Position numbers and translations under genes: made by a program
Assembly (NCBI GenBank): GCA_005882895.1
Contig: VBBD01000021.1
Coordinates: 1 to 36,986 of the forward strand
From: Candidatus Bathyarchaeota archaeon
GTDB taxonomy: Archaea; Thermoproteota; Bathyarchaeia; 40CM-2-53-6
DNA: 36,986 nucleotides
Reading direction: 5' to 3'
The notes under the pieces: model-generated
Database searches by the model: none
What the model was told of the DNA's origin: nothing
What the model saw: the letters and a program-made list of their open reading frames with translations, nothing else
Shown here: positions 2,309-32,244 of the stretch, in pieces
Layout of the letters: every line of letters starts with the position of its first letter
How positions within the stretch are numbered: the stretch's first letter is position 1

Positions 2309-2327
2309 TCTCTGGTCCTTAATAGAC

Positions 2328-6947: not shown

Positions 6948-6965
6948 GAAGGAAAGCCGACTCGG

Positions 6966-7904: not shown

Positions 7905-7928
7905 CCTGTATTCAGAGCACCTGGTTGC

Positions 7929-14153: not shown

Positions 14154-15020
14154 CTGGTTGAGACGACGGCCGATTACCGAGTAATCATCGGTGACAGCCG
14201 TCGAATGAGAGAACTAGCGGATAGCTCCGTGCATCTAGTCGTCACCTCGCCACCCTACCCGATGGTTGGCATCTGGGACGATTTCTTCCGAGAGGAATCC
14301 GCGCAATCCTACGATGAGATGCACCGGTACCTCTACCAGACCTGGAAAGAGGTGAAGAGAGTCCTAGTTCCCGGCGGAATTGCCTGCGTCAATATTGGCG
14401 ACGCGACCCGGACCAAGGACGGCATATTCCATCTCTATCCAAACCACTCGCGTGTGATAGAGTCTTTCGAGCAACTCGGCCTCGTTACCCTACCCTACGT
14501 TCTCTGGAAGAAGCCCACAACCAAACCCCGCTACAGGGGAAAAGGAGCGTTTCTAGGCTCAGGTTTCCTCCCGCCCAATGCGTACGTGACCCTAGATATG
14601 GAGTATATTCTGATCTTTCGCAAGGGAAGTCTGAGAGCATTCGAGCCTAAGGACCCACAGCGCTACAAGAGCAAGTTCACCAAGAGAGAGCGAGACGAAT
14701 GGTTCTCACAAGTCTGGACCGTCACTGGAGCTAGACAGACGCATCGAGGGTTAGAAAGGCGAGTTGCGGCATTCCCTGAAGAGATTCCACGACGACTAAT
14801 CCGAATGTTCTCCATAGAAAGCGACCTTGTCTTAGACCCTTTTCTTGGATCTGGAACCACTCTCAAGGCCGCGATGGATCTCAGCCGACGTTTCATTGGA
14901 TATGAGAAACTTGAAGATTTTTCGGGGATCATCCGAGAAAGGATGGGCCAGGGATCAGAAAAAATCGTTTTCCAAAAACAGTCTGTTGTGGAACAGGTCA
15001 GTCCCGCATTAGCAGCCTAG
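14154..15020 (+). CDS. DNA methyltransferase, probably N4-cytosine type, with apparent CTG start
   Basis: From CTG 14154 the protein has 288 residues. The N-terminus reads VETTADYRVIIGDSRRM (the usual G-D-S/A lead-in), then VVTSPPYPM at residues 31-36. T-S-P-P-Y is motif IV as found in N4-cytosine methyltransferases, and DPFLGSGTTLKAA near residue 228 is the SAM-binding motif I. The order IV before I is the beta-class arrangement. No restriction enzyme gene is adjacent, so it is an orphan enzyme. No ATG, GTG or TTG lies between the upstream in-frame TGA (14148-14150) and ATG 14205. Starting at ATG 14205 would remove the conserved G-D-S strand. The 3' end overlaps the convergent HAD gene by 23 bases. 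Confidence 0.85.
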   Translation: MVETTADYRVIIGDSRRMRELADSSVHLVVTSPPYPMVGIWDDFFREESAQSYDEMHRYLYQTWKEVKRVLVPGGIACVNIGDATRTKDGIFHLYPNHSRVIESFEQLGLVTLPYVLWKKPTTKPRYRGKGAFLGSGFLPPNAYVTLDMEYILIFRKGSLRAFEPKDPQRYKSKFTKRERDEWFSQVWTVTGARQTHRGLERRVAAFPEEIPRRLIRMFSIESDLVLDPFLGSGTTLKAAMDLSRRFIGYEKLEDFSGIIRERMGQGSEKIVFQKQSVVEQVSPALAA

Positions 15021-15714
15021 CAGCATCACTTAACGATCGAGCGAGGTAGTCTGGATGTCCGCCCTTTGGGCTTCGACGTTTCACAAGTATCATCATCATT
15101 CCAACTCCCTTCGCTCCTTCAATGTCGGTGTTTGGATTGTCGCCGATGTAGACACAATTCCTGGGTTGTAAGCCTAGTCGTTTTGCGACCAGCGTGAAGG
15201 GCCTCCTGCTTGGTTTCACATTAGGCGTGTCCTCGCCCGCAACAACAATGGTTTCCAGATACTTCAGAAATGACTGTTGGCGAATTCTCTTCATTTTCAT
15301 TCCCGGGGTCCCATCTGAGTCGGAGACCATTCCGAGTCTAAACCCTGCCTTCTTCAGTCGATGAATCGTCGACATCGTGTCGGAGAACAGTGGACTTGTT
15401 CCAGCGTACGTCTTCCAGTAGCGGAGAGTTGTCTTGTGAATCCATGGACCTTTCAGGTTAGACAAGCCGAGCTGTTTGAGCAAGGTTTCCCACCAGACAT
15501 CCCTGTTGTAGAGGAATTTTCGGCCGTGCATTTCCAAATCGATGAGCCGGAGTTTCCTGAACATGTTTGCTTCGGAGTAGTGGAATCCTTCTTTCCTCAA
15601 CCGTTTCGCGAAGATGGCTGCGACCACTCTAAGCGCCTGGTGAGCGCCCTTCTTTGACTGGATGAGAGTGTTGTCTAGATCGAAGACGACTCCCCAAATC
15701 TTCCTCTCGGCCAG
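14998..15714 (-). CDS. HAD-superfamily hydrolase, apparent CTG start
   Basis: From CTG 15714 the protein has 238 residues. The N-terminus is AERKIWGVVFDLDNTLIQSK, which contains the catalytic motif I D-x-D-x-T; the nearest standard start, GTG 15627, lies after this motif and would give a dead enzyme. Motif II appears as LGMVSDSDGT and the late acidic motif as CVYIGDNPNTDIEGAKG, with a Lys in VKPSRRPF between. This is a phosphatase or dehalogenase-like enzyme of the subfamily I type with a helical cap; the substrate is unknown. The gene follows the CN hydrolase stop in the same frame with only two codons before the CTG, so translation may be coupled. Confidence 0.85.
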   Translation of the reverse strand: MAERKIWGVVFDLDNTLIQSKKGAHQALRVVAAIFAKRLRKEGFHYSEANMFRKLRLIDLEMHGRKFLYNRDVWWETLLKQLGLSNLKGPWIHKTTLRYWKTYAGTSPLFSDTMSTIHRLKKAGFRLGMVSDSDGTPGMKMKRIRQQSFLKYLETIVVAGEDTPNVKPSRRPFTLVAKRLGLQPRNCVYIGDNPNTDIEGAKGVGMMMILVKRRSPKGGHPDYLARSLSDAARLLMRD

Positions 15715-15720
15715 TATCTC

Positions 15721-16503
15721 TCAATTCCAGACGTATGTTTCTGGCCTACGATCCGCGAACCGTTCTCTACGCAGTCGAGCGTGAAGAGCGAGATCAATAT
15801 CCTCAACGATTATTCCCTCTCGCCGCTCTTTGAACACGTTCATTCTAGGGTGGGATATCTTCATCTTCGGTTCTTCCTTGAGCCTAACAATCATACTGTA
15901 CCCCGTGAACAAGGGCGGAGAGTAGACGTTGGGTGCCACAACCGCTATTCGGTTCTCTAGCGATCGAATCGTGACGTATTGATGCCACGGTTCAACTCCC
16001 TGTCTCACAATCCTTGATGGACACATCAGCAAGTCCGCACCCTTAAGGGTCAGGATTCTCGCGGCCTCTGGGAAATCAACGTCGTAACAAACTAGGACCC
16101 CAATTTTGAACCCGTCAACCGGGAAGACCTTGTAATCGTTTCCAGGACGCGCGATCTTTTTCTCGAAGTGAAACAGATGGATTTTCGGTTGTCGTCCGAT
16201 GACTTCTCCGTCCCGACCAATGACCGGGCTATTAAGATAGATTCGGCCCCTGACACGTTCGTAGAAAACTCCTCCGACAACCACAACACCGTACTCCTCA
16301 GCGACCGATTGGAGTCCCGGAAGCGGGCTCATAGGCGACGGAATCGTCTTCTCAGGCAACCAATGCTCTGGTAAGCAGATAATGTCCGCTTCCTTCTCCG
16401 CTGCCCGCTTTGCCTGCTTGATTGCCCGGAAAATTGTCTCTTTGACGGAGATTGCTATAGGTCTGGTCTGCACTGCTGCCGCTCGAACAATCTTCTTTGA
16501 CGT
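15721..16503 (-). CDS. Carbon-nitrogen hydrolase (nitrilase superfamily), apparent ACG start
   Basis: From ACG 16503 the protein has 260 residues. The Glu-Lys-Cys catalytic triad is visible in order: E in ICLPEHWLPE, K in GRQPKIHLFHFEK, C in IGVLVCYDVDFPEAA. Such enzymes hydrolyse amides, nitriles or carbamoyl groups; the substrate is unknown. The ACG start gives SKKIVRAAAVQTRP, the usual first beta strand ending V-Q. The only standard in-frame start, GTG 16473, removes that strand. A GAGGT-containing stretch at 16513-16518 lies nine bases upstream of the ACG. The gene is in the same frame as CoaBC upstream, separated by its TAG and six codons. Confidence 0.85.
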   Translation of the reverse strand, partial: TSKKIVRAAAVQTRPIAISVKETIFRAIKQAKRAAEKEADIICLPEHWLPEKTIPSPMSPLPGLQSVAEEYGVVVVGGVFYERVRGRIYLNSPVIGRDGEVIGRQPKIHLFHFEKKIARPGNDYKVFPVDGFKIGVLVCYDVDFPEAARILTLKGADLLMCPSRIVRQGVEPWHQYVTIRSLENRIAVVAPNVYSPPLFTGYSMIVRLKEEPKMKISHPRMNVFKERREGIIVEDIDLALHARLRRERFADRRPETYVWN

Positions 16504-16521
16504 TAGGGAGCGACCTCTGGC

Positions 16522-17784
16522 CTAGACTTTCAGTCTCTTGACTGCAATGTCCAATAATTGGCGCGCGACCTCACGCTTGGGCGCCAAAGGAATGTGGATG
16601 ACATGCTTTCGCTCGTCGACAACAAACAGCTCGTTAGTATCAGTCTGAAATCCTACACCGTCCAGTGAGACATCGTTGGCCGCGACGAGGTCTGCGTTTT
16701 TCTCGCTGAGTATTTCAAACGCTTCTGTCACGAGCCGCTCGTTCGTGACGCCGTGTTCCGTCTTGAAAGCTACGAGAAACGAGTTCGGGCTTGCACGACG
16801 AATTTCTCGGATTATTTTCGGAGTGGCTTCTAGCTCCAGCTCGACGGTTTTCTCCTTCCTTGTGCTTATCTTCTGGCCAGCGGGCTTCGATGGCCTATAG
16901 TCGCTCGGGGCCGCGGCGGCGAAAACTAGATCGTGTTTATCCTTCTTCAATTCGCGCAGAGTAGCCTCAAGCATCTCCTCCGTGGTTTCAACTTTGACAG
17001 TCTTCACGCTAAGTGGAGGTGTGACTGAGCCGGGTCCCAGAATCAACGTTGTGTCGGCACCTCTTGACCATGCTTCCTCTGCAATCGCGACGCCCATCTT
17101 CCCTGAGGATCGGTTAGTGATTACTCGGACCGGGTCGATGTGTTCGATCGTGGGACCTGCGGTGACCAGCACCCTATGTCCCTCAAGGTCTCTTCTCTGA
17201 GATGAGAGTTGAGAAGAGAGCCGTGTGATGACCGCCTGAATAATCTTAGCCGTTGATGCGATCTTCGCCTTTCCTTCTACAATCTCCGGTTCGACAAACT
17301 CGACGCCTATCTTCTTGAGACGCGCAATGTTCTCTTGAGCTATTGGATGATCATACAAAGGCTCGTGCATCGCTGGTGCAATGAGAACCGGCAGTTTGGA
17401 ACCGATGGCGGTCGCAGCCACCGTTGTGACCGGCGTATCGTCAATTCCCGATGCAAGCTTCCCGATCGTGTTAGCGGTTGCAGGTGCGATGAGAACTAGG
17501 TCAACGTGTCCCGAACTCTTTCCAGCGAGGGTTATGTGCTCCAACTTGCCGGTAAGCTCTCGGACTACTGGATTTCCTGTAGCCCATTCTAGAAGATCGG
17601 ATCCGATCATCTTCTCTGTCGATGGTGAGATTACTGCATACACGTCCGCTCCATGTCTCATCAGCTCGCGCGCAATCTCGGGAACTTTGAACGAGGCAAC
17701 ACTACTCGACACTAGGAGTGCAATCTTTTTTCCTGAGAGTTGTGTGCCAGAGGATCCGGTGATGTCCTTGGAGGGGTGGGTCAT
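16522..17784 (-). CDS. coaBC: Bifunctional phosphopantothenoylcysteine decarboxylase/phosphopantothenate-cysteine ligase
   Basis: The protein has 420 residues, the usual CoaBC length. The CoaC flavoprotein half begins with KKIALLVSSSVASFKVPEIA and has the FMN-site region LIAPATANTIGKLASGIDDT and APAMHEPLYDHP with the catalytic His-containing A-M-H. The CoaB half starts near residue 205 with HRVLVTAGPTIEHIDPVRVI and NRSSGKMGVAIAEEAWSRGA and ends in the typical ANDVSLDGVGFQTDTNE region. Together they convert 4'-phosphopantothenate to 4'-phosphopantetheine for coenzyme A. It is followed by the CN hydrolase and preceded, 14 bases away, by a small hypothetical gene, suggesting one operon. Confidence 0.95.
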   Translation of the reverse strand: MTHPSKDITGSSGTQLSGKKIALLVSSSVASFKVPEIARELMRHGADVYAVISPSTEKMIGSDLLEWATGNPVVRELTGKLEHITLAGKSSGHVDLVLIAPATANTIGKLASGIDDTPVTTVAATAIGSKLPVLIAPAMHEPLYDHPIAQENIARLKKIGVEFVEPEIVEGKAKIASTAKIIQAVITRLSSQLSSQRRDLEGHRVLVTAGPTIEHIDPVRVITNRSSGKMGVAIAEEAWSRGADTTLILGPGSVTPPLSVKTVKVETTEEMLEATLRELKKDKHDLVFAAAAPSDYRPSKPAGQKISTRKEKTVELELEATPKIIREIRRASPNSFLVAFKTEHGVTNERLVTEAFEILSEKNADLVAANDVSLDGVGFQTDTNELFVVDERKHVIHIPLAPKREVARQLLDIAVKRLKV

Positions 17785-17798
17785 TTCCGGCCTGCCTC

Positions 17799-18077
17799 CT
17801 ATTTCTTCAATTGTCCACTGTCATAGGCCCAGTCTAGAAGTTGTATGATCTCGTTGAGACTATACTTTCCGGCGCTCTGAGGGATCCGTTTGAGAATGTC
17901 GGGCAGGCTCGGTAGCATGGGCCGAATAAATCCGGGAATCTTGTCGTACATTGCCTGGACCCCCGAAATAATCTCCTTGGCGTCTTTCTCTTCGATACTG
18001 GTTCCCTTGAGAGCTGTCTTCATACTCTTGACGCTCATTTTCCTTCCAACTTCCTGGTTCGATCTTATCTCGGACAT
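17799..18077 (-). CDS. Small hypothetical protein upstream of coaBC
   Basis: The protein has 92 residues, mostly helical by composition, with a Pro-containing middle section (KIPGFIRPMLPSLPDILKRI) and a C-terminal QLLDWAYDSG. It has no membrane segment or cysteine. I do not recognise the family. It lies 14 bases upstream of coaBC on the same strand and is likely its operon partner. The start is ATG at 18077; an internal ATG (MSVKSMKT) is an alternative. Confidence 0.6.
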   Translation of the reverse strand: MSEIRSNQEVGRKMSVKSMKTALKGTSIEEKDAKEIISGVQAMYDKIPGFIRPMLPSLPDILKRIPQSAGKYSLNEIIQLLDWAYDSGQLKK

Positions 18078-18249
18078 ATACAGGTTCTTCGCGTCCCGTC
18101 GGTGTCAATTTCTGGGATTGTACCTTGAGGAACAGTAGGCAAGGGAGCCCAGTTCAATCGTTCCTCGCTTCTGTTAAGAGTTCTTCAAAGAATACGGAGT
18201 CACCGTGTATTGAAGCAATCCGGTGGGTTCTTGGTCCTGGTCTGTCAGG

Positions 18250-19332
18250 CTAGGGCATAGATCTTCCATCGCCGGTAACTTTTGGAAGGCTTTGCATCAA
18301 AGAGTAATGTTGGGGGAAGGTCCACGCCTTCCATTTTCTCCACATCTTATTGGAGAAAAGAACGGCCAACAGGTCGTTCATTATGACAAGGGGGAGAGAT
18401 GCGCTGGCTGCGATGCCGAAGATAATTATCGGAGAAATCAGTCCGAACGCGAACGCGACTTTGTGGGCTTGGTTGAGTTGTGTTCCCATTGACCTGAAGA
18501 CGAGCCGAAGTACCCACAGTGAGATGAGAATATCGAAAACCATGATGACCGGCGGGAAGAGGTTGGCACTTGCTGCGAAGCCTCCTGCAAGGAGCCAGAT
18601 CGGAAAGAAAATCGCTCCAATTAAAAAGAATGCTCGGGGCCTCCATCTCGGCTCTGCTCTAACAGTCTTCAGAAAATCAGTAGGCAATTTCTTCGCAGCG
18701 ATAACGAGCAGTACTACCACAATGCTCGAAAGAACCAGTAGACCCCATATCTCAGCAGGCCAATAGTTTACGAGTAACGAAAGGAGGACAGAATCGGTAG
18801 CTAACGTGACTGTACTGATTCGTATTCCTTTTGTCGAAACAAGGCTTTTTGATTTCAGATCTGGAAATGCTAATCCGAAGATGAAGATAGGCAGGCCGAT
18901 GCTGAAAACTGAGTGGAAGATCACCAGTCCGACCGTCCAGACCCAGTTGACTCCGAGCCAGTGGCCGTAGACGCCTAGATTTCCTACTACCGAGGATGTT
19001 GGGTTGAACAGTGTTCGCAGGGCGAGTCCCTCTTCCACGATTCCGTAGGCTGCTCCCAGGAGGAAGACTGATGCCCAGCCTTTGTTCCAGCGAATCTTGG
19101 CCTCGCGGATCAATATGACGCCTGGACCGTAGAGGGCGAGATTCGCAGCGAGAAGGAGAAAGAATACTGGAGGATTTAGAACCAGGAAAGCCATGTTGCT
19201 TGAGCCTGAAAGGTACTCTGGAATCCCAGGGGTTAGAATGAGCAGACAGAGTAATGGATGCGCCTTTAGGTAGCTGATTATCCGGGCTACGCGCCCCTTT
19301 CTTTCCGTGACTTGTGGGTACCACGTACTCAA
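18250..19332 (-). CDS. Polytopic membrane protein with a conserved EE motif
   Basis: The protein has 360 residues with about nine hydrophobic segments. The first helix ends in LTPGIPEYLSGSS, and the segment AAYGIVEEGLALRTLFNP carries two adjacent glutamates and an arginine inside a membrane stretch. A later helix reads GLVIFHSVFSIG with a membrane-embedded His. Glu-Glu plus His in membrane helices recalls CPBP (Abi) intramembrane proteases, but the spacing E-E-x4-R is one residue off that family's E-E-x3-R. The relation is therefore only suggestive. The start is TTG at 19332. It stands between UPF0146 and the coaBC operon. Confidence 0.6.
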   Translation of the reverse strand: MSTWYPQVTERKGRVARIISYLKAHPLLCLLILTPGIPEYLSGSSNMAFLVLNPPVFFLLLAANLALYGPGVILIREAKIRWNKGWASVFLLGAAYGIVEEGLALRTLFNPTSSVVGNLGVYGHWLGVNWVWTVGLVIFHSVFSIGLPIFIFGLAFPDLKSKSLVSTKGIRISTVTLATDSVLLSLLVNYWPAEIWGLLVLSSIVVVLLVIAAKKLPTDFLKTVRAEPRWRPRAFFLIGAIFFPIWLLAGGFAASANLFPPVIMVFDILISLWVLRLVFRSMGTQLNQAHKVAFAFGLISPIIIFGIAASASLPLVIMNDLLAVLFSNKMWRKWKAWTFPQHYSLMQSLPKVTGDGRSMP

Positions 19333-19432
19333 GGATGAGGTCTCGAAGCTACGGGAAACCGGGTCTACAGTATTAGCCGTCTAATACCAAGGGAAGCATC
19401 TCTCCGTTACTAGAAGAAGGTCTTCTTACCGA

Positions 19433-19891
19433 TCAACCGTGCTTGTTGAGGAGCCAGCCGACGATTCTCCCACGGACCACGAGCTCTCGCCACCTATCTT
19501 GCGTGAGATTGTGTCGTTCGTCGCTTATAGGAACTACCAGTAGGTCTGCTCCGATTCCATTCGCCAATTTCTCCAGCGCGTGTAGGATCTCTCCGGGAGG
19601 ATGTAGAGAATAGATTAGGGACGCTCCCTGATACAAGTTGAAACTTGGAAATGTCACATCGTCTGCGACAGCTCGAATCCGTCCAGGCTTCTGCGAGCGC
19701 ACCCAAGATTCGTCTTTGTCGGTTACAAGAACCTCTGCCAGAGGCAGGGCTTGAGATATTCGCTCCGCCACGTCTATCCTGTGGCCTACTCCGATTTCTA
19801 TGATTTTCCTGGCGTCGCCGTAGTTCTGTTTGATCCAGTCTACGAGCTGTTCGAACAAAATTCTGGATAGATCCCGGATCACTTGGGCCAA
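19433..19891 (-). CDS. UPF0146 family protein
   Basis: The protein has 152 residues. It contains KIIEIGVGHRIDVAERIS, a Rossmann-type E-x-G-x-G loop, then VLVTDKDESW with an acidic strand end, and ASLIYSLHPPGEILHALEKL in the second half. This is the pattern of the archaeal UPF0146 family, which resembles a short SAM-dependent methyltransferase fold but has no assigned activity. The TTG start at 19891 overlaps the end of the PEP synthase gene by 13 bases; GTG 19885 is an alternative. The two genes are probably translated from one message. Confidence 0.8.
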   Translation of the reverse strand: MAQVIRDLSRILFEQLVDWIKQNYGDARKIIEIGVGHRIDVAERISQALPLAEVLVTDKDESWVRSQKPGRIRAVADDVTFPSFNLYQGASLIYSLHPPGEILHALEKLANGIGADLLVVPISDERHNLTQDRWRELVVRGRIVGWLLNKHG

Positions 19892-22266
19892 CGGGGCTGC
19901 ATAGCACCCTGCTCTCCGTTGGCCTGACGCGTCTTTCTCATCCCTTCAAGGATCAGCTTCTGCTCGATAGCGGCCACCAACAATTTCGTCTCGATGACCT
20001 TGTCCGGATTGACGCTCATGCTAACAGCTCCCTCTCTAACCAGAAACTCGACAACCTCGGGATAGTTTGAAGGTGCTTGACCGCATATCGATGTCGTCAC
20101 GCCTTTTTCGCTGCAGACTCTGATTACATGGCTCATTGCTCGTAACACAGCAAGATTGCGTTCGTCGTAGATTTCCTGGATTGATGCGTCGTCTCGGTCA
20201 ATGCCAAGGATCAACATTGTCAGGTCGTTGGTTCCGAATGATATTCCGTCAATTCCCTCGTCGACAAACTTGTCGATCAGCAATACTGTAGCGGGAACTT
20301 CTACCATGATCCAGAGTTTGAAGTCGGGGCCTCTCTTCAATCCCTCCTCTTCGAGGATTTTCCTCGCGTTCCTGAAGTCCTCAAGCGTCCGGACGAAAGG
20401 CAGCATCACGTGGACGTTGGTGAGTTTGTACTCTTCTCTAACTTTCTTGATAGCTCGGCACTCTAATCGGAAAATGTCAGGCTCTTTCACGTATCGGAAG
20501 CAGCCACGGTATCCTAGCAACGGGTTGGGCCCGACATGGCCGGCTTCATGTTCGTATTTTTCGCCGCCTGGAAGGCCTAGAAACTCGTCAGGTTTGAAGT
20601 CAAGGCATCTGTAGACGACTGGCCGTGGAGCAAAAGGTGTTGCCACCTTTCTGACCCCTTCAGCGAAAGCGTCGACCATCTTCTCGCCGCCTCCCTCCTC
20701 TATCAACAATCGCGGATGTTTCCCGACGGAGAGCATCATGTGCTCTGCTCGCAAGAGACCTACACCGTCCGCGTGAGTCTCCCGTTCGACCTTTTCTGCG
20801 AGCTCTGGGAGTGAGATGTTCACGTAGATCTTTGTCGCGGTTATTGGGATAACAGTGGGAATCTCATGTTGAGGTTGTGTTGCCCTGAGAACTTCTTCAA
20901 CTAGACCGTTATAGACGACTCCTGATTTCGCATCGACCGTATACTCTTGTCCCGTCTGCATAAGTTTGGTCGCGTTCCTTGCGCCTACGATGCATGGGAT
21001 ACCCATCTCTCGGGAGACGATGGCAGCGTGGCATGTTGTTCCTCCGTCTTCTGTGACGATTGCGCCGGCGATTTTCATGTAGGGAACCCAGTCAGGGTTC
21101 GTCATTCGAGTAACGAGAATGTCCTTGTTCTTCATCAAGCGTCCCGCTTCAATAGTGGTAGGGACGATCTTCGCTCTTCCCGCGTGCAAGCCCGGGCTCG
21201 CGGCCAGACCGTGCACGACCGCGACTCTATGGACGATATGTGAATCCGTTTCGCCGGTTGGACTCTTCATCTTGCTCCAGAAGGTTTCGGGCCTGGTCTG
21301 GACAACGTAGAGTGAATTTCCGGTAGGTCCGTTCTCGATGGCGAACTCGATATCTTGTGCAGTGTGGTAGTGATCCTCGATGTCCACCGCGGTCTTTGCA
21401 ATTTCGATTACTTCCTCGTCGGTTAGGCTGGAAACGTTACGTCGCTCTGCTGGGACTTCGTTCTGCATGGTCAGCCCTGTTTTGTTGTTTGGGACGTGCT
21501 CGATCATCTTTGGGACGATCTCTTTGTGGATTAGCTGCATGGTGCCTTTGTCGACGATGAACCTGTCAGGACGCACGATTCCCGCGACGAGGGCCTCTCC
21601 CAGACCCCATGTCGATTCGATGACTATCCTTGATGGGTCGCCGTTGATCGGGTCTAGTGTGAAAACTACGCCAGAGGATTTTGATTGGACCATCTTCTGG
21701 ACTCCGACGCTGATGAGTACTTTCTCGTGTGGGAAACCCTTCTCTTCCCGGTAGAATATGGCGCGTGGAGTGTAGAGGCTGCCCCAGCATTTCTGCACAT
21801 AGTGTACGAGCTGATCCTCGCCGCGGACGTTAAGGTAGGTGTCTTGTTGCCCAGCGAAAGATGCGTCGGGCAAATCTTCGCTGGTGGCGGAGGACCTTAC
21901 TGCGACAGTCACATTCTTGTCTCCGGTTTTCTCGCATAGCTCGCGGTAGGCACTTCGGACTTTGCCCGCGATGTCCTGGGGCATGGGGGCGGATTCTAGA
22001 ATCTTGCGGATCTCCTCGGACGCTTCCTCGTACTGTTTCGGGTCCCGGGAACCGTTAGAGCTTCCCAACGTCTTGTGTATAACCTCGCCGATCTTTGTCT
22101 CTTCAAGAAATCGGTGAAATGCTTCTGCAGTTACTGCGAATCCGGGAGGGACATTGACTCCTTTGGCTGTAAGCTCGCCGAGGTTAGCGCATTTTCCACC
22201 GACTAGTGGAATGTCGTCTTTTCTTACGTCTTCAAGCCGGACAACTATGGCGTCTAGCTTGGGCAC
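19879..22266 (-). CDS. ppsA: Phosphoenolpyruvate synthase (pyruvate, water dikinase)
   Basis: The protein has 795 residues, the normal length. Residues 15-330 are the ATP-grasp-like nucleotide domain, starting with VGGKCANLGELTAKGVNVPPGF and including VAVRSSATSEDLPDASFAGQ. The mobile phosphohistidine domain has EDGGTTCHAAIVSREMGIP with the catalytic His near residue 420. The C-terminal TIM barrel carries GVGLLRAEHM and ends with the cysteine motif TSICGQAPSNYP. The enzyme makes PEP from pyruvate and ATP for gluconeogenesis. The start is GTG at 22266, four bases after the L10e gene, and the 3' end overlaps UPF0146. Confidence 0.96.
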   Translation of the reverse strand: MPKLDAIVVRLEDVRKDDIPLVGGKCANLGELTAKGVNVPPGFAVTAEAFHRFLEETKIGEVIHKTLGSSNGSRDPKQYEEASEEIRKILESAPMPQDIAGKVRSAYRELCEKTGDKNVTVAVRSSATSEDLPDASFAGQQDTYLNVRGEDQLVHYVQKCWGSLYTPRAIFYREEKGFPHEKVLISVGVQKMVQSKSSGVVFTLDPINGDPSRIVIESTWGLGEALVAGIVRPDRFIVDKGTMQLIHKEIVPKMIEHVPNNKTGLTMQNEVPAERRNVSSLTDEEVIEIAKTAVDIEDHYHTAQDIEFAIENGPTGNSLYVVQTRPETFWSKMKSPTGETDSHIVHRVAVVHGLAASPGLHAGRAKIVPTTIEAGRLMKNKDILVTRMTNPDWVPYMKIAGAIVTEDGGTTCHAAIVSREMGIPCIVGARNATKLMQTGQEYTVDAKSGVVYNGLVEEVLRATQPQHEIPTVIPITATKIYVNISLPELAEKVERETHADGVGLLRAEHMMLSVGKHPRLLIEEGGGEKMVDAFAEGVRKVATPFAPRPVVYRCLDFKPDEFLGLPGGEKYEHEAGHVGPNPLLGYRGCFRYVKEPDIFRLECRAIKKVREEYKLTNVHVMLPFVRTLEDFRNARKILEEEGLKRGPDFKLWIMVEVPATVLLIDKFVDEGIDGISFGTNDLTMLILGIDRDDASIQEIYDERNLAVLRAMSHVIRVCSEKGVTTSICGQAPSNYPEVVEFLVREGAVSMSVNPDKVIETKLLVAAIEQKLILEGMRKTRQANGEQGAMQPRWPK

Positions 22267-22270
22267 TAGG

Positions 22271-23269: not shown

Positions 23270-23271
23270 AC

Positions 23272-24099: not shown

Positions 24100-24105
24100 C
24101 CATGC

Positions 24106-24110
24106 TCACC
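24106..24110 (-). promoter_or_regulatory. Shine-Dalgarno GGTGA that supports an ACG start
   Basis: Read on the minus strand, GGTGA ends six bases before ACG 24099. For the out-of-frame ATG at 24103 the spacing would be only two bases, too short, so the motif favours the ACG. Confidence 0.5.
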
Positions 24111-24137
24111 TTACGTGGATTCCGGCTCGTTTTCGGC

Positions 24138-24146
24138 ATATAGACC
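24138..24146 (-). promoter_or_regulatory. TATA-like box for the CN hydrolase
   Basis: The minus strand reads GTCTATATG, about 40-45 bases upstream of the ACG start, leaving room for a short leader that includes the GGTGA. Confidence 0.4.
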
Positions 24147-24253
24147 TGCCTAACGGCTCGTAATAGCCCCCGTCCGTTGTTCAAGGTTACAGTACGGCTT
24201 TATGACGCTCAGCCCGTTCCCGCCTCGTTTCACACCCTCAAGGAGGGAATGGA

Positions 24254-27200
24254 TTGCTCTTCACAAGGCTAGCTCGTACTATCATCAAGCACAACCGGGC
24301 GGTCTTCGTGATCTGGCTGGTCGCTCTCGCCTTAAGCGTCCCAGCAATTCTCCAAGTTCAGAGCGTCATCGTCTACACCGAGACAGCTTACAACCCCAAG
24401 AATTCGGAGTCGAGCATCGCTCAATCCATTGTCAGCAGGGAGTTCAGCATCAGTCAAGGCGACAGCGTCGTAGTGGTAATCACATCAACGGATGTGCGGG
24501 GCAACGACGTTCGCGACTTTACTCTAACGCTGAACAAGACCCTGCATAATGACCGGACAATCACAAACCTAAGCAACGTCACAAGCATCTACGACATCTA
24601 CTACCAATTACTCGTTGGTTATACGAGCGAGGTTCATCTCCAGCTCTATCAGGAGAAAAACCTGACCAGCCTTGCCACTTCGATAGAATTCGGCGTACCT
24701 GCAATCTACGTGAATCAATGGACAACGCTCGTAAATTCTGGGCCTTTCAACATAAATCAATCACAGGTCGCCGCCTACAATCAAAAAGCCAACCAATCCG
24801 CATGGTTGATTATAGCTTCGCAAACTCCCCAAGCCTACCAGCCAATCGCTTTGGCCTACGAGAACCTGTTCTACCAATCATGGAACAAGACGTTCAACGC
24901 CTCCACATACACTCAAACACAAATTACGGTAGTCACGCCTCCATTAGCCCGGGCTCAGAACGTGACCAAAGGAAGCCCGCTAATGGTGACTCAGCCAGCT
25001 TACTACAACATCACCCTGCCATTCTTCCAGTCTAGTATACCAGACGCGCCAACCCGAACTCTGTTCGTCGATGCCGCGGGGTTCTTCAACCTCTACAACT
25101 TCTGCCCCAATACATGTCCCAACAATTACTGGAACGACCCCGCCGCGATTCAGACCTTTGTTGTCGACGCGTTCTCGGAAATGGCCAATGCAACGCCGAC
25201 CCAGACCTTTATCATAGGTGAGATTTACTCGCTCGGCGCTTCAGCGAGTTTCGGGGACTTTACAAGCCTCGCAGGCATGCTTCTTCGAAACTACAACCTC
25301 AACAGTTACCCGGTCCAGCCGAGCAAAGACGTCTACACCCAGTTCGTCTCCGGCTCTAATGACACAATGCTGGTCATACTGGACTTCAAAACGACCGGAC
25401 CGGACCCGAAGAACAGCATCGCAAGCATACGGACCGACGTTCAACATGCAAACGTCTTCAGCAACACAAACCTCTTAGTCTATGTCACAGGCGCCCCGGC
25501 GTTCAATTATGATATTGAAACAGAATCGATCAGAGACGTGGAACGCATAGACCCCATCACCGTCGTCCTGATCATAATAATCGTCGGCATATTCTTCGCG
25601 TCTCTTGCAGCCCCACTGATCCCGGTATCCGCTATCGGAATATCTGTAGGCATAGCCTTCGGCCTAGTCTATATAATCGGCAGCCTGTTCACTAGTGTCC
25701 ATTTCCTAATCTTGACACTCCTGCCCGTCGCGATGTTCGGGGCAGGGTCCGATTACTGCATCTTTCTTGTCAGCAGGTATGCTGAGGAGAGGCGGATGGG
25801 ACGAGGAAAGAAAGATTCTGTCGAACGAGCCGTAACGTGGGCGGGCGAGAGCATCGCCACAAGTGGAGCTACAGTGGTCATTGCTTTTGGAAGCCTGGCC
25901 ATTGCTGGCTTTGGAATGCTCCGGTCTATCGGGATCGCGGTAATGATGGGCATATCCATCGCACTACTAGTCGCCCTCACTCTAGTGCCAGCTATTCTGT
26001 CCATATTCGGGGACAAGATATTCTGGCCAGGCGGACTGGGTCTCTGGAGAAAGAAGAAGGTTAAAGGGAGCAGCTACTACGCACGTGCAGCTAGGTTTAC
26101 CGCAAAACACTCGAAGCTAATCCTCATAGTCGCCCTAGCCGTCAGCCTACCAGCCACGAGTACGGTCCTTTCCTCACAGACAAGCCATGACCTCATATCA
26201 CAGGTTCCAAACTCCCTCGAGAGCAGAGCCGGCTACAACAGCATGGTCCGAGGATTCGGACCCGGGACAATAACCCCAACGTACACAATCGTGCAGACGC
26301 CTGTAATACTCGCAACTGACAAGTGGATTAACGTCACCGCGTTGCGCTCTCTATCCTACGCCGAAAACTCGACATTGTCGATCTCCGGCATATCGAAAGT
26401 CTACGGGCTTACGCATCCATCGGGCGATCCGATTCCGTACTCATCCTTCAGCCAGTTGAATGCTGCACAACAACAAGCCATGATCAGGAGCATGGAGCCC
26501 TTCCTCGGGAGCGATGGAAAATCGGCAATGGTCTGGGCTAATTTGTCCAACGAGCCCTACACAGACAAGGCCATCACTACGCTAACGAAAATCAGGCAGA
26601 ACATCAACAGTCTCCAGAGCAGTGATAGGCTACTCGCCTCATCTACAATGCTTGTCGGGGGAGAAACGGCTTCCGTCGCAGATCTTGCCAACTCAAGTGC
26701 TGCTGACTACTTCAACATGACCGCACTAGTCCTTGTCGGAGTCTTCGTAGTTCTAATGATCGCCCTAGGCTCGATCTTCACTCCGTTGCGGCTCATCTTC
26801 ACCATACTTCTCAGCATCTCCTGGGCGATGGCCGCAGCCATCTACATCTTCCACACCTATATCGGGATGGAACTGATCTGGATACTCCCAATCATGCTTC
26901 TAGTAATAATGCTCGGACTAGGACTTGATTACGACATATTCCTAGTAACTAGGATCAGAGAATACGTGGTCGGCGGCGCGAAAGATGACGAGGCCATCGA
27001 GACTGCAGTAGAGCGCACTGGAGGCATAATCACAGCCACAGGTCTAGTGACAGCAGGTGCCTTTGGAACTATGATGCTGTCGCAGATACCCATGCTACAA
27101 CAGCTCGGGCTCGCGTTCTTCATAGTCGTTATTCTGGACGCGACCATTACACGAGTCTACCTTGTACCTTCGATCATGAGGCACATGAAGCGTCTCAATT

Positions 27201-27718
27201 GGTGGGCTCCAGGACGGATAAGAAGGGTACCAATCACTCCAGAAGAGAAGCTCATACCTCCTATCCCGATGGGAACAAAGCTCGTTGTTACAGTGGAAAC
27301 TCTAGCGGTTGCAGGGCTCGGTCTGGTATTCTATCTCGACTATATCAACAATCAGTATCTTCAAGGATTCGTAAATCAGACAAGCTCAAGGCTCCTAGCA
27401 GGGATCAACGTCTGGACCGGAGTGATACTTGGGGTAACATCCTTCCTGACAACCTACATTCTTCTCCGTGGAAAACCCAAAACTGGCAGCACAGACAAGC
27501 CAGCCCTACTTCGCAAGGTGAGCCAGCAGTTAGGCAAACTTCGTCCGAGACGTGCGAAAATACCGATAATCACGCCTATTTCCAATCCCTCGGCCAGCTT
27601 GGCCTCACTGGGACCAGTAGTCACAACAGAGACGCCTCTCAAACCAACACTCCAAGACCAAGAACAACCTACGACGACCTCTTCCAATTCAAGTGAAGAG
27701 AAGAAGCAAGGGGCCTAG
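24254..27718 (+). CDS. MMPL/RND-superfamily membrane exporter
   Basis: The protein has 1154 residues with the duplicated RND layout: one N-terminal helix, a large extracytoplasmic domain (about residues 40-430), five or more helices, then the whole pattern again. The helix-4-like signatures are GAGSDYCIFLVSRYAEERRM in the first half and GLGLDYDIFLVTRIREYVVG in the second, with the G-x-D-Y motif of MMPL proteins. Such proteins use the ion gradient to move lipids or hydrophobic compounds. The extracytoplasmic domains are Asn/Ser/Thr-rich, consistent with archaeal glycosylation. A long Thr/Ser-rich tail follows the last helix. The start is TTG 24254 with GGAGG seven bases upstream; no ATG is in frame there. 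Its TAG overlaps the convergent gene's stop. Confidence 0.9.
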   Translation: MLFTRLARTIIKHNRAVFVIWLVALALSVPAILQVQSVIVYTETAYNPKNSESSIAQSIVSREFSISQGDSVVVVITSTDVRGNDVRDFTLTLNKTLHNDRTITNLSNVTSIYDIYYQLLVGYTSEVHLQLYQEKNLTSLATSIEFGVPAIYVNQWTTLVNSGPFNINQSQVAAYNQKANQSAWLIIASQTPQAYQPIALAYENLFYQSWNKTFNASTYTQTQITVVTPPLARAQNVTKGSPLMVTQPAYYNITLPFFQSSIPDAPTRTLFVDAAGFFNLYNFCPNTCPNNYWNDPAAIQTFVVDAFSEMANATPTQTFIIGEIYSLGASASFGDFTSLAGMLLRNYNLNSYPVQPSKDVYTQFVSGSNDTMLVILDFKTTGPDPKNSIASIRTDVQHANVFSNTNLLVYVTGAPAFNYDIETESIRDVERIDPITVVLIIIIVGIFFASLAAPLIPVSAIGISVGIAFGLVYIIGSLFTSVHFLILTLLPVAMFGAGSDYCIFLVSRYAEERRMGRGKKDSVERAVTWAGESIATSGATVVIAFGSLAIAGFGMLRSIGIAVMMGISIALLVALTLVPAILSIFGDKIFWPGGLGLWRKKKVKGSSYYARAARFTAKHSKLILIVALAVSLPATSTVLSSQTSHDLISQVPNSLESRAGYNSMVRGFGPGTITPTYTIVQTPVILATDKWINVTALRSLSYAENSTLSISGISKVYGLTHPSGDPIPYSSFSQLNAAQQQAMIRSMEPFLGSDGKSAMVWANLSNEPYTDKAITTLTKIRQNINSLQSSDRLLASSTMLVGGETASVADLANSSAADYFNMTALVLVGVFVVLMIALGSIFTPLRLIFTILLSISWAMAAAIYIFHTYIGMELIWILPIMLLVIMLGLGLDYDIFLVTRIREYVVGGAKDDEAIETAVERTGGIITATGLVTAGAFGTMMLSQIPMLQQLGLAFFIVVILDATITRVYLVPSIMRHMKRLNWWAPGRIRRVPITPEEKLIPPIPMGTKLVVTVETLAVAGLGLVFYLDYINNQYLQGFVNQTSSRLLAGINVWTGVILGVTSFLTTYILLRGKPKTGSTDKPALLRKVSQQLGKLRPRRAKIPIITPISNPSASLASLGPVVTTETPLKPTLQDQEQPTTTSSNSSEEKKQGA

Positions 27719-28329
27719 GATACTATCCTATACAAGTCGACTTCGACATTGTTCCATTTCTTGTGATGAAACGGGAAGAGATGGGGAATGTTGAGAGTCA
27801 TGTTACGCAGTGCATCAACCCTCCGATTTTTCTTTGCGATGACACCGTTAAGATACTCTCTAGTCGAACTCTTGTGGATAGAATACGAAACAGGAGCAAG
27901 CTCGAACGCTCGCTCAAGAAATCGGACGTCAAGATGAGGAGACCGTGTCCCATATGGAGGATTCATGATTACAGTGTCATATCTTCCCACGACCTCGGCG
28001 ACATCCGATACGACCCATTCGACTTGGACCCCGGTCGCCCGCGCGTTCTCCCTTGCTAGAGCAATAGCTTTCTCATCGATATCTACCCCCACGACCTTCT
28101 GTGAGCCCATGATGGCAGCACCGATCGCTAATCGCCCGGTCCCGGTTCCGAGATCAATGATTTCGCCCTGTAGATCGCGATGCTCGAACCCGGCCATATA
28201 GAGCAGTTCAGCTGCTACTTCGGGAGAAACGGGGTACTGTTCGAGCCCTAGTTTTGGGGTCTGAGGTATCTTCAGTTTTCCCAACTGAATCTCCAGTTGG
28301 CGTTTAGAAACTGTTTGTTCTTCTACCAA
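27715..28329 (-). CDS. METTL5-like rRNA adenine-N6 methyltransferase
   Basis: The protein has 204 residues. It has the substrate-entry lead QYPVSPEVAAELLYMA, the SAM loop IIDLGTGTGRLAIGA, the acidic strand VGVDIDEKA, and the catalytic motif IMNPPYGTRS. N-P-P-Y with this N-terminus and a C-terminal FPFHHKKW is the pattern of the archaeal COG2263 family, homologous to METTL5, which methylates an adenine in small-subunit rRNA. The start is TTG 28329 right after the dph2 stop, so the two genes are one unit. Both modify the translation machinery. The stop overlaps the MMPL stop in the shared CTAG. Confidence 0.88.
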   Translation of the reverse strand: MVEEQTVSKRQLEIQLGKLKIPQTPKLGLEQYPVSPEVAAELLYMAGFEHRDLQGEIIDLGTGTGRLAIGAAIMGSQKVVGVDIDEKAIALARENARATGVQVEWVVSDVAEVVGRYDTVIMNPPYGTRSPHLDVRFLERAFELAPVSYSIHKSSTREYLNGVIAKKNRRVDALRNMTLNIPHLFPFHHKKWNNVEVDLYRIVS

Positions 28330-29337
28330 TTATAGGCGGACCAGTCCCCGTTCCAAAAGCTGTTCCCAGGTCCATGCTCCGACGGCAACCATGATCTCGT
28401 CTCTTGTGATGATCGGCTTTGGAAACCTTTCAGGGTCGTCGAGCGCAAGGCGGGGACAGGCAGTATCAACGAAGACGTCGATATCGATGAAGTCGAGTAG
28501 TTTCTGTGGCACAATCTCATCCGCGTAAAGAACCACAGCTTTCTTGCCTGCTTCCTCGATTTGCTTGAGAATTGACAGAGCAATCTGTGGGTTGCTTTGT
28601 CCTGGCTTCGTCGATACTATTATTCCGAAACTGCTGGCTTTCCTCGCTTTGTCGACCATTGCATATCTTTGCCGCACTATACGGTCTCTGTCTTGGTCTA
28701 GGACCTTGACTGTTCCATCATAAGGATCCGCAAGAATCGTTGATTTCTCTACTGAGAGAGCCGCACCAAGACCGTGGAAATAGCTGCCTACGATTAGAAA
28801 TGAGTCGACCTGAGACTGAATCCTCCTAAGTCCGAAATAGTCGCAACCTAGAACCTGTCCGGTCTCGTGTGCCCAAGGACCGCGTCCAGGCGTCTGAACG
28901 TTGAAGCCCTTCGCTTCGAGGAATTTTGCCGCTTCAGGAACCTTGTGCAGGTGTTGAATTGTAGTGGCAAGGCCGACTGTCTCGCCTTGGAGGAGGGAAA
29001 CAGCTCGCTCCACGAACGGAATAATGTCATGATTGCTTTTTGCAGGGAGATAGACCACTGGGACTCCGTTGGAACTGTCGCGGAAGAATTCGTTATGCCC
29101 GTAATGCACGAGTAGGTCAGCTCTCAGGCGGGTCGCGGCATCTAAAGAGAGGTCGCAGGCGCCCCACGCAGGCACCGCGGAAACGAACACGTCCGCTCCT
29201 GTTTTCTCTCGAACCAGCCCCGCAAGTCTAGTGCCCTCGTTCTTCAGACCGTCGGGTAGCTGAATCAGTATCCTTCGGGCACCTCTCCCCGTTATCTCAG
29301 CTAGGAGCTTGTCCTCTTCAAGGTCGAACATCGCCAT
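28330..29337 (-). CDS. dph2: Diphthamide biosynthesis radical enzyme Dph2
   Basis: The protein has 335 residues. It has ILIQLPDGLKNEG near the N-terminus and three conserved cysteines in the expected places: Cys61 in WGACDLS, Cys165 in LGCDYFG and Cys294 in DTACPRLALDD. They hold the [4Fe-4S] cluster that cleaves SAM to transfer an aminocarboxypropyl group to a histidine of elongation factor 2, the first step of diphthamide synthesis. Archaeal Dph2 works as a homodimer. The gene is preceded by a clear TATA box and followed without a gap by the METTL5-like gene. Confidence 0.95.
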   Translation of the reverse strand: MAMFDLEEDKLLAEITGRGARRILIQLPDGLKNEGTRLAGLVREKTGADVFVSAVPAWGACDLSLDAATRLRADLLVHYGHNEFFRDSSNGVPVVYLPAKSNHDIIPFVERAVSLLQGETVGLATTIQHLHKVPEAAKFLEAKGFNVQTPGRGPWAHETGQVLGCDYFGLRRIQSQVDSFLIVGSYFHGLGAALSVEKSTILADPYDGTVKVLDQDRDRIVRQRYAMVDKARKASSFGIIVSTKPGQSNPQIALSILKQIEEAGKKAVVLYADEIVPQKLLDFIDIDVFVDTACPRLALDDPERFPKPIITRDEIMVAVGAWTWEQLLERGLVRL

Positions 29338-29375
29338 GTCAAATTCACGGGAGAGAATCTACCAAACGGGCGGAG

Positions 29376-29388
29376 CTCAATATAAACA
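29376..29388 (-). promoter_or_regulatory. TATA box of the dph2 operon
   Basis: The minus strand reads GTGTTTATATTGAG-like sequence centred about 45 bases upstream of the dph2 ATG. TTTATAT is a close match to the archaeal TATA consensus. Confidence 0.55.
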
Positions 29389-29472
29389 CCCGAGAAGATC
29401 GGACGATTTCCTTCGCGGTAGCTTGTTAGGTAACACGACTGTTAAGCTCGGTGTTGAGGGTGGGTTGAGGCT

Positions 29473-29859
29473 ATGACAGAGAACCAGAAACCGGAGTCCA
29501 GACTCGACCTTGGTCTCGCCGACCAAAGGTCCCTGGCAACAATGGTCGATGCTTCATTGAAGCGCGGGTCTGGTCTGTCGATTGCGCTGTCTGATGCGAC
29601 TATAGGCGTCAGCCTTGACAAGCTAGGTGATTGGACCATCACGGTTGGTCTCTCATCTAGATCAGATCGCTTCCACCAATCGATATCCTGTCTCGAAAGA
29701 TTGGGGTTCTTTCAAGCAACAGAAAACGAAGGTAGCATCTACATGCTCTGGACATCTCTACTCTCGGAAGTCGGTGATGCCAGAATTGTTGCTGAGCAGA
29801 CTCTTTTGCAAGCTGTGAAGGCTCTGCAAAGGCCTACCGTTTCACTGTACATCAGCTAG
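29473..29859 (+). CDS. Hypothetical protein
   Basis: The protein has 128 residues, soluble, with one cysteine and no membrane segment. The first 20 residues are polar; alternating hydrophobic residues (LSIALSDATIGVSLD, WTITVGLSS) follow and suggest a beta sheet, and the end is helical (EQTLLQAVKALQ). I recognise no family. The start is ATG 29473, with GGTTGAGG just upstream as a ribosome-binding site. It is divergent from dph2 and convergent with the Rad50-like gene, so it is probably expressed alone. Confidence 0.6.
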   Translation: MTENQKPESRLDLGLADQRSLATMVDASLKRGSGLSIALSDATIGVSLDKLGDWTITVGLSSRSDRFHQSISCLERLGFFQATENEGSIYMLWTSLLSEVGDARIVAEQTLLQAVKALQRPTVSLYIS

Positions 29860-29877
29860 TCAAACGAGCTTAGAGTG

Positions 29878-32244
29878 TTACGCGGGAACCGCGACTGTTT
29901 GTCGCGGTAGAGATTTTCTCCCGACAACTTCACGGATCGCGCCATTATCCATCTGGATTATCGTATCCGCCTCCGCTTCAAGATCTCCAACATGGCTGAT
30001 GAGAAAGATCTGTTTGAAGTTCTGTGACAGTTCTTGGTGGAGCAGTGCGAGGATTCCTTCTCGGCGAACTCTGTCCGAACTGCCCAAGGGCTCGTCGAGG
30101 AATAGAAATTCTGGATTATGGCCCTTGGCTTGAGGTAGCAGTGCGAGGGCAAAGGCTAGCCTCATTGCCAGTAAGAGCTGGTCTTCTGTGCCCCCTGAGA
30201 AAACCTCCTTAGGCTTGAACTCACCAGCCTCAGGGTCAAAGACTCTGACAGTATAGTCTTCATCGAGTTGTACAGCTTTGTATTTTCCTGAGGTTATCAC
30301 TGGGAGAATGAGTCCCATATAGCGTTCGACTTGGGGCTTAACACGGTTCCGCAACGACTCTGATGTTTGCTCCAATCCCTTGACAGAAAGCTTGACGACT
30401 GCACAATCCTTCTCAAGGAGCATCACCTTCTTCATCTGGGTCTGAACCTGGTCGTCAAGACCGATGTTCTCCTCGAGTAACTGGCGTAGTTCTAGTTGTC
30501 GGGAGATCGAGTCTTCGATCTGGGCCTTGTTTCTTGAAACGGATTCTTTTAGCGAATCTCTCGCGTCAGCGGTCTCCTCAAAGAGCGTCTCGGAGAAGGC
30601 CAGGCCTTCTGGGAGATCGGGTAACTGAGCCGAGCTGAATTTCTTCTCGACCTGTTTGATTTCGGTCTGGATAAAGTCGAGCCGTTCTTTGACCTGCGGT
30701 TCCTCTTTCAACTGCTGGCCAAGTAATTTCACCTTAGCCTCGAGAGACTGAAATGATTGTTTGTCACTGTCGAGCAAGGCGGAAATAGTCTCGAAAATCG
30801 CTTTAGGGTCCTTGGTCCCTGCGATCTTTGCAGAGTATCGCGAGATTGAACTTAGTCTTTCCAGAAGATTTTTTGACCTTCCAGCAACGTCTGTTTCGAT
30901 TGCCGTCAGGTTTTGTTGAGTCTCTGCAAGCTCGTTCTCCCATGAGCGGATTAACTGCTGGCCGGCCATTTGCTCTTGCTCAAGTTTCGAGCTGCTAGCT
31001 TGTTGCGAGAGAGAGACAATCTGTCGGGACAATAATAGGAGGGATGCTATGGCCAAGGATCCGAAGGCAACTGCGACTTGGGGAAGCCCGAGGAAGAAGG
31101 AAAGAATAGCTCCAGCGCCTAGCGCCGAGGTGGAGATGAAATATGTCCAGACCCTTCTCGGCTTGGACTCGAACGTTTTGGGATTTCCAAGAACTGAAGC
31201 TTCCTTGGTCTTTTCGACAATTTTGGCACTTAGATTATCTTTCGACTCTTCTAACTGAACTCTGCGGATTTCGGCGGATTGAAACTCTTCAAGCATGCTC
31301 GATGCTTGGGTAAGCTGGGTTTCTATTTCGGAAAGTTCAGAGAACTGATTGATCTCTGATTGAGCGTTCTCCAGTTCTTCTCTCTGGGCAGAAATCCCCG
31401 CGAGTTGTCGCTGGAGAGTCTCTGCTAGACGCGACTTGTCCTGAATCTCTTGACGAAGAGATTGTTGAAGCTTCGAGGCGTCATCGTATTGTTTGAGGGT
31501 CTTGTGGAGGAAATCGGTGGCTGCGAACTTTTTCTCTAGATCTACAAGTTCTAACTTGAGCTTCTGAATCCTCTCGGCCAAAGTTGAGAGTTGGGTCTCG
31601 GCTTCCCGGTATCTCTTCAACTGGTCTTGAAGCGATTGGAGGCGCTCACGTTCAACCGTTAGTTGGCCCGGATTTCTGGTCGTGCCCTCGATCCGCGCCC
31701 TCTCAGCATCGAACTGGTCTTGGACTCTGTTGAAGCTGTCTAGGTTTAGGAATACGTTGACAACTTTCCTTCGATCGTCAAGTCTCTGCTTGATTAGTCT
31801 TTCAAGATCTTTCTGTGCGACAACGCTGCTTGCCACAATTTCGTTGTAGGTGATTCCTCCGAGGAGTCGTTCGATCTCACTCGTTGTGTCATTTACTGTC
31901 GTGGCGAGGGTTTTCTGTCGACCGTCCCCGCCGAGCTCGTAGAGCTGTGCACGATTCGGTCTAGTCTTGTGAATCTCTCTTACTACTCGGTATCTGAGGT
32001 CGCCGATGGCGAATTCGAGTTTTACTTGGGCTTCGACGGTTCCGTAGCTGAGGATCTCCTCGTTGCTCGGCTTCTGGCTAGGACGGATCATCCTGCCGAA
32101 GAGGGCGAAGAGGATCGCGTCGAGGATAGTGGATTTACCGCTCTCATTCAATCCCGTGATTAGCGAGATGCCTTCTGAGAAGGTTAACGGCTGTGAGAAT
32201 TTGAGTTTCTTGAAGTTGTGAGCGTAGAGGCTTAGAAGTTTCAG
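29878..32244 (-). CDS. Rad50/SbcC-like ATPase with a membrane hairpin (YhaN-like), apparent CTG start
   Basis: From CTG 32244 the protein has 788 residues. The N-terminus reads KLLSLYAHNFKKLKFSQPLT and the Walker A is GLNESGKST at residues 31-39. A Q-loop-like VVAQKDLERL follows, then long coiled coils. In the centre (about residues 365-408), where Rad50 has its zinc hook, there are two adjacent hydrophobic helices; the whole protein has a single Cys, so no C-x-x-C hook exists. The C-terminal lobe has the signature FSGGTEDQLLLAMRLA and the Walker B FLFLDEPLGSSD. The S-G-G-T-x-D-Q signature and membrane hairpin resemble bacterial YhaN, partner of YhaO. CTG overlaps the Mre11 stop as CTGA. The next standard start (TTG 32151) would destroy the Walker A. 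Confidence 0.88.
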   Translation of the reverse strand: MKLLSLYAHNFKKLKFSQPLTFSEGISLITGLNESGKSTILDAILFALFGRMIRPSQKPSNEEILSYGTVEAQVKLEFAIGDLRYRVVREIHKTRPNRAQLYELGGDGRQKTLATTVNDTTSEIERLLGGITYNEIVASSVVAQKDLERLIKQRLDDRRKVVNVFLNLDSFNRVQDQFDAERARIEGTTRNPGQLTVERERLQSLQDQLKRYREAETQLSTLAERIQKLKLELVDLEKKFAATDFLHKTLKQYDDASKLQQSLRQEIQDKSRLAETLQRQLAGISAQREELENAQSEINQFSELSEIETQLTQASSMLEEFQSAEIRRVQLEESKDNLSAKIVEKTKEASVLGNPKTFESKPRRVWTYFISTSALGAGAILSFFLGLPQVAVAFGSLAIASLLLLSRQIVSLSQQASSSKLEQEQMAGQQLIRSWENELAETQQNLTAIETDVAGRSKNLLERLSSISRYSAKIAGTKDPKAIFETISALLDSDKQSFQSLEAKVKLLGQQLKEEPQVKERLDFIQTEIKQVEKKFSSAQLPDLPEGLAFSETLFEETADARDSLKESVSRNKAQIEDSISRQLELRQLLEENIGLDDQVQTQMKKVMLLEKDCAVVKLSVKGLEQTSESLRNRVKPQVERYMGLILPVITSGKYKAVQLDEDYTVRVFDPEAGEFKPKEVFSGGTEDQLLLAMRLAFALALLPQAKGHNPEFLFLDEPLGSSDRVRREGILALLHQELSQNFKQIFLISHVGDLEAEADTIIQMDNGAIREVVGRKSLPRQTVAVPA

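Follow-up and report, generated by a model that had tools for sequence, protein, structure and literature searches.

Can genes of an archaeon start at CTG or ACG? The question is raised by a window of 36,986 bases, the whole stretch of DNA that was analysed, which is contig C60 of a Candidatus Bathyarchaeota genome (1.97 Mb, 92 contigs, completeness 86.6%). A sequence-only reading of this window had proposed that five genes within 18 kb use these codons as starts, that catalytic residues would otherwise be lost in them, and that gene finders would truncate such genes. The five codons and their coordinates proved to be correct, and no ATG, GTG or TTG is found in any of the five frames between the upstream stop (for the Rad50-like gene, throughout the open upstream stretch) and the proposed start.

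The first of the five encodes an N6/N4 DNA methylase (MTase; PF01555, N6_N4_Mtase; 14154..15020, + strand), with the proposed start CTG at 14154-14156, a GGTGA motif 7 bases 5' of it and a stop codon two codons upstream; this Shine-Dalgarno-like motif and the stop of the preceding PAC2-like gene lie at 14136..14146 (+ strand). An ACG at 14163 is a possible alternative start of the MTase gene, and some relatives have ATG there. The other four genes are on the - strand. The HAD-family hydrolase (PF00702; 14998..15714) has CTG at 15714-15712, with TGA in frame three codons 5' of it. CN hydrolase 1 (CN1, PF00795; 15721..16503) has ACG at 16503-16501, with GAGGT 9 bases 5', and CN hydrolase 2 (CN2, PF00795; 23272..24099) has ACG at 24099-24097, with GGTGA 6 bases 5'. 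In the Rad50/SMC-like gene (PF02463, PF13476; SMC_N/AAA_23; 29878..32244), which has GGAGG upstream, the CTG at 32244-32242 overlaps as CTGA the stop of the Mre11-like gene directly upstream (32241..33392, - strand), which itself has an ATG start. The GGTGA and GAGGT motifs, their distances and the CTGA overlap had been read correctly beforehand. In four of the five cases the genes form an operon-like row, and no more than about 20 bases separate the start from a stop upstream.

A comparison of orthologous start codons had been among the checks proposed. Each of the five proteins was searched against 61 genomes, and the first-position codon was tabulated in the aligned orthologues, of which there were up to 19 per gene, from the genus and the family of the window genome. 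CTG or ACG recurs in close relatives of every one of the five genes. The Rad50 column contains CTG in 15, TTG in two and ATG in one of 18 family genomes, and GTG in three genomes of family f4 (labels with f or g denote anonymous families or genera); in G002 and G011 a TAG immediately precedes the CTG. Nine named loci with 85-93% identity to the Rad50-like protein belong to Candidatus Bathyarchaeota MAGs (seven) and to Crenarchaeota 13_1_40CM_3 (two). Each of the other columns comprises 19 genomes: ACG 11, GTG 3, ATG 3 and other codons 2 for CN1; ACG 7, ATG 9 and TTG 3 for CN2, with TAG immediately 5' of the ACG in G009; CTG 8, TTG 1 (G004), GTG 1 (G009) and others 9 for MTase; and CTG 10 and others 9 for HAD. 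The "other" cells stem mostly from genomes in which the start lies some codons off, in MTase, for example, at an ATG two or three codons further downstream, and in HAD (G018, G003, G007, G020) at an ATG or TTG that precedes the column by two or three codons. Thus, in four genes (Rad50, MTase, CN1, CN2) some orthologues carry a canonical codon (ATG, GTG or TTG) in the very column in which others carry CTG or ACG. The exception is HAD, for which none of the 19 relatives has a canonical codon at the start column; CTG is present in all ten close-clade genomes, and in G016, G011 and G002 no canonical codon occurs from the upstream stop to the sixth codon past the aligned column.

To estimate how common such starts are, a census was taken of the window and of contigs C13 and C18 around two aIF1 loci, together with the orthologous stretches of relatives. 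From 75 aligned genes, 13 were dropped as unreadable or shadow frames, leaving 62. In the window genome these have ATG 31 times, TTG 18, GTG 6, ACG 4 and CTG 3, so that CTG and ACG account for 7 of 62 genes; this value of 11% is an estimate, because nine start columns were set by hand, including all seven with CTG or ACG. Their share is higher in the window (5 of 23 genes) than in C18 (2 of 23) and C13 (0 of 16). The number of five within 18 kb was right, but such starts are not confined to that region, because two more ACG genes are located on C18. Across 588 gene-by-genome cells, ATG occurs 284 times, TTG 173, ACG 35, GTG 34, CTG 33 and other codons together 29, most of the latter having a canonical codon no more than a few positions away. 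GCG, TCG, AAG, AGG and ATA are absent from the 588 cells, and ATT or ATC appears in a few, such as the ATT of the POR-type oxidoreductase gene of G017. About one gene in ten thus appears, from these alignments, to start at CTG or ACG in this archaeal group. A blind expectation-maximization (EM) of the start set was too noisy to use: with a uniform start, boundaries were off by a few codons and opposite-strand shadow frames slipped through the coding filter, and a run freed of shadows and weighted towards canonical codons at the start gave the ranking ATG, TTG, CTG, ACA, ACG.

Start codons are also exchanged outside the five genes. The gene for a CoA-binding protein (Pfam) on C18 has ACG in eight genomes, ATG in G007 and TTG in G010, and the POR-type gene has ATG in five, ACG in two (G005, G002), GTG in one and ATT in one (G017). 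The MFS gene on C18 resembles HAD in lacking any same-column exchange, and for one ACG gene of C18 the window genome offers a GTG five codons further upstream. On a genome tree built from 11,667 concatenated columns, 11 changes between canonical codons and CTG or ACG were placed over nine genes, four of them in CN2. A switch test on columns with clean ATG, for which 27 of 92 groups were usable, gave TTG 6, ACG 5, CTG 3, ATA 3 and GTG 1 elsewhere in the group, as against ATT 6, CTG 4, TTG 3, GTG 3 and ACG 2 for 75 internal ATG columns; it should be regarded as a pointer only, as several of the 27 groups were shadows or misaligned. The clear new case from it is an ABC ATPase, with ACG as the start in G012 and ATG as that in both G005 and G014. 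Several candidates were not counted as new: the CTG of CoaBC in G018 (GTG three codons upstream; included in the cell and switch counts), of HyuB in G018 (GTG two codons upstream) and of a 73-residue ORF in G005 (TTG three codons downstream), as well as the ACG of TFIIB in G003, G007 and G010 and the CTG of a cytidylyltransferase-like gene in G008, G010 and G016, which both failed the census identity filter.

Beyond the family of the window genome, f1, two families were covered. In f3, another family of the same order (41 alignments, from two overlapping reference sets), the genes for ribosomal proteins L13 and L18e (Pfam) start with ACG in G034 and G035 and with ATG in G036. The gene for a CN hydrolase begins with CTG in G032, G034 and G035, where no canonical codon follows the preceding stop. 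No CTG or ACG start was seen in the 15 alignments of f4.

When a Shine-Dalgarno match was defined as at least 5 bases matching GGAGGTGATC at positions -20 to -4, it was found at five of the seven CTG/ACG starts of the window genome, two being without, and at 7 of 55 others (Fisher p 0.002). Over all genomes, the share with a match was 67% for CTG (4 genes), 23% for ACG (5 genes), 18% for GTG, 8% for TTG, 7% for ATG and 9% for shuffled sequence; the excess is thus clear for CTG, which is represented by just 4 genes, and less marked for ACG. In addition, five of the seven genes have an unchanged CTG or ACG in all 7-11 close genomes, whereas the fraction of constant four-fold sites in the same five genes is 18/72, 9/51, 5/21, 4/48 and 6/46 (8-25%). 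Multiplied, these fractions give a chance of about 1 in 10,000; the value is rough, as sites were taken to be independent and the calculation was made once the pattern was known. The comparison suggests retention of the weak codon as such. Because several weak starts look as if kept by selection, they may set low or coupled expression.

Which property of the translation machinery would permit such starts? The sequence-only reading had pointed to the initiator tRNA and the initiation factors. A tRNA scan of 50 loci for the initiator tRNA gene returned only one tRNA-Thr and one tRNA-Arg. Among 250 genomes of the class, 212 had a SUI1 match; 18 of the 20 matching f1 genomes have two or three SUI1 (aIF1) genes, and the other 192 have one. 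A search of the relatives found three in 14 of 21 f1 genomes, and it differs slightly in sensitivity from the class search, so that the window genome has two copies in the class search and three in the relatives search. A search of 200 genomes of the phylum with copy b as the query again gave three for the window genome and a single gene for each of the 192 other genomes with a match. The aIF1A and aIF2-beta-type families are single-copy in the matching f1 genomes. Copy a, whose N-terminus contains four cysteines, is an ordinary aIF1 and resembles archaeal aIF1 of known structure (4mo0, 5jb3, 5zcy). Copies b and c group as a separate clade (support 0.993), and both score above the Pfam cut-off of 25.5 bits for the SUI1 domain (65.0 and 32.1 bits, respectively). 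Loop 1 reads RRWGK in copy b and HHSGR or HHTGR in copy c, where aIF1 has R-R/K-W/F-G-K; by the correspondence to P. abyssi R31, Y32 and K34, which was read off alignments, the basic loop-1 residues with which Pyrococcus aIF1 contacts the 30S subunit appear to be kept in copy b and lost from copy c.

It is conceivable that the additional copies b and c relax start choice, by competing with normal aIF1 and lowering discrimination or by diverting mRNAs with weak starts. In S. solfataricus, aIF1 discriminates against non-canonical starts (PMC8211752), and the restriction of the expansion to f1 and to this one factor among the genomes and factors searched, together with the altered loop of copy c, would fit such a role. 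However, f3 has a single SUI1 gene and still has ACG and CTG starts, so that triplication as the sole cause was rejected, and in H. volcanii, which has two aIF1 genes, deletion of the second had no phenotype (PMC3828320). Relaxation by the extra copies is therefore possible but rather unlikely, and the aIF1 expansion is a lead, not the cause. A wider reading, which we regard as speculative and still more doubtful, combines both observations: the start code would be expanded to all NTG codons plus ACG and some ATT/ATC, the selected weak starts would form a layer of translational control, and the two diverged aIF1 paralogues of f1 would separately tune mRNAs that have weak starts and are led by a Shine-Dalgarno motif.

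The remaining alternatives fare worse. C-to-U editing of the mRNA would convert ACG to AUG and CTG to UUG, and it is indeed a common property of both odd codons that this change yields a canonical start. Nevertheless, editing should rescue GCG and TCG as well, neither of which is among the 588 cells, and it is thus very unlikely.

No more credible is the view that translation starts at the first downstream ATG, GTG or TTG and that the conservation upstream of it reflects an RNA element or a decayed N-terminus. In the window genome, this codon would be codon 18 in MTase, 30 in HAD, 11 in CN1, 47 in CN2 and 32 in Rad50. The anticipated loss of catalytic residues was borne out for three genes: HAD would lose Asp12, CN2 would lose Glu44, and the TTG of Rad50 lies inside Walker A, all of which we take to have catalytic roles, as we do for the nitrilase-type Glu of CN1. 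It does not apply to CN1, in which the GTG at codon 11 keeps Glu46 of PEHW, or to MTase, in which the ATG at codon 18 precedes the Pfam domain, whose first residue is 26; the CN1 glutamate and the MTase domain would thus be retained in the shorter form. The canonical codons that relatives have at the same column in four of the five genes speak against it, however, as does the coding pattern. For seven genes (the five of the window and two of C18), the codons from the odd start to the first canonical codon were compared with an upstream stretch of equal length. The downstream stretches show 728 synonymous versus 382 non-synonymous codon differences, and the upstream stretches 193 versus 1399; differences at codon positions 1, 2 and 3 number 292, 189 and 908 downstream versus 1070, 926 and 1010 upstream. 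The upstream stretch of HAD is an exception, CN1 ending there in the same frame. The position-3 bias and the synonymous excess of the downstream stretches argue that the disputed N-termini are protein-coding; the region between CTG or ACG and the first canonical codon appears to be translated and to be under constraint at the protein level.

Random consensus errors or indels that conceal ordinary starts, a doubt raised at the outset, would fit the ATG that lies out of frame four bases before the ACG of CN2, but they are refuted by the recurrence of the same codons, for a single gene in as many as 15 separate genomes, named independent contigs among them, and an indel linking the frames to standard starts is not needed as an explanation.

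CTG and ACG are thus, as judged from comparative evidence, almost surely real starts here: relatives share these codons or exchange them for ATG, GTG or TTG at the same column, and the N-termini evolve as coding sequence. It is probable that they are genuine starts of this archaeal lineage that are read by the ordinary initiator tRNA with the help of Shine-Dalgarno pairing, which we infer to be the best-supported mechanism. The Met initiator tRNA (anticodon CAU) would read the one-mismatch codons CTG and ACG in the P site, pairing over a longer than usual Shine-Dalgarno motif would aid initiation, and the close upstream stop in an operon-like row may help as well for four of the window's five genes. 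The start set in use would comprise ATG, TTG, GTG, CTG and ACG, with a few possible cases of ATT or ATC.

If real, this would be lineage-wide non-canonical initiation in archaea that includes core genes (ribosomal proteins L13 and L18e in f3; Rad50). According to its own paper, Prodigal considers only ATG, GTG and TTG as start codons, so that such genes would be truncated, as had been foreseen; in this widespread uncultured group, many predicted proteins would lack their N-termini or go unpredicted, and domain calls and cloning would be affected. Pairs of orthologues with switched codons offer a natural experiment in start-codon selection, and with the aIF1 expansion the question of stringency becomes directly testable.

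How does this compare with known systems? In the literature searched, most subscription papers being outside its reach, no published CTG or ACG start in Bathyarchaeota was found. A review on archaea names AUG, GUG and UUG only, and CUG, ACG and "non-AUG" are absent from its text (PMC7531240); the high use of TTG and the overall weak Shine-Dalgarno signal are common to the archaeal starts treated there and to those described here. An annotation-based survey of 36 prokaryote groups lists only 2 of 61,358 AUG starts as switched to CUG (PMC5622118). CTG and ACG each differ from AUG by one base, as expected of near-cognate codons, and orthologues interchange them with canonical codons in four of the five window genes and in the C18 CoA-binding and POR-type genes. 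In plant plastids and mitochondria, ACG starts are edited to AUG; a genomic ACG at the start is a shared feature, and the group studied here differs in having no GCG or TCG starts. In eukaryotes, CTG and ACG are the usual codons of near-cognate initiation, and rare CUG and AUU starts are used in bacteria. One-mismatch codons are common to these systems and to the present one, in which, however, they are found in an archaeon, at about 11% of the sampled genes, and with switching between orthologues.

ACG appears to be the start codon of the genes for ribosomal proteins L13 and L18e (locus L311, 5090-5533 and 5532-5888, minus strand) in G034 and G035, two genomes of f3, another family of the same order, whereas G036 has ATG at this position. 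In their respective start columns, the HAD-family hydrolase orthologues of G008, G010, G011 and G016 (L074, L077, L081 and L075) and the POR-type oxidoreductase gene of G017 carry ATC or ATT, with no canonical start nearby in any of the five; these codons are possibly additional non-canonical starts. In four genomes, an open reading frame (L166:610-2214 in G012, contig C25, minus strand) has a stop codon preceding its conserved N-terminus, FPFF..GYTSPLSGRLS, and neither an NTG nor an ACG codon near it.

The window's genome, G000, contains three aIF1 (SUI1) genes (C13:21372-21590, C18:25771-25980 and C18:4042-4248; loci L256, L277 and L276), and among the class and phylum samples (250 and 200 genomes), more than one copy was found only in f1, the family of the window.

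Separately, in G009, G005 and G014, the cysteine motif of a radical SAM gene is split by an intein-like insertion that carries a nuclease domain of the DUF559 type (L284:3497-5692, L282:5712-7913 and L290:5098-6579); only that of G009 matched a Pfam intein model, below the cut-off score, and the equivalent site in G000, G001 and G017 is free of such an insertion. Six glycosyltransferase- and methyltransferase-like genes at 830-8657 of the window, for which no orthologues were found in the examined stretches of relatives, perhaps form a surface-polysaccharide island.
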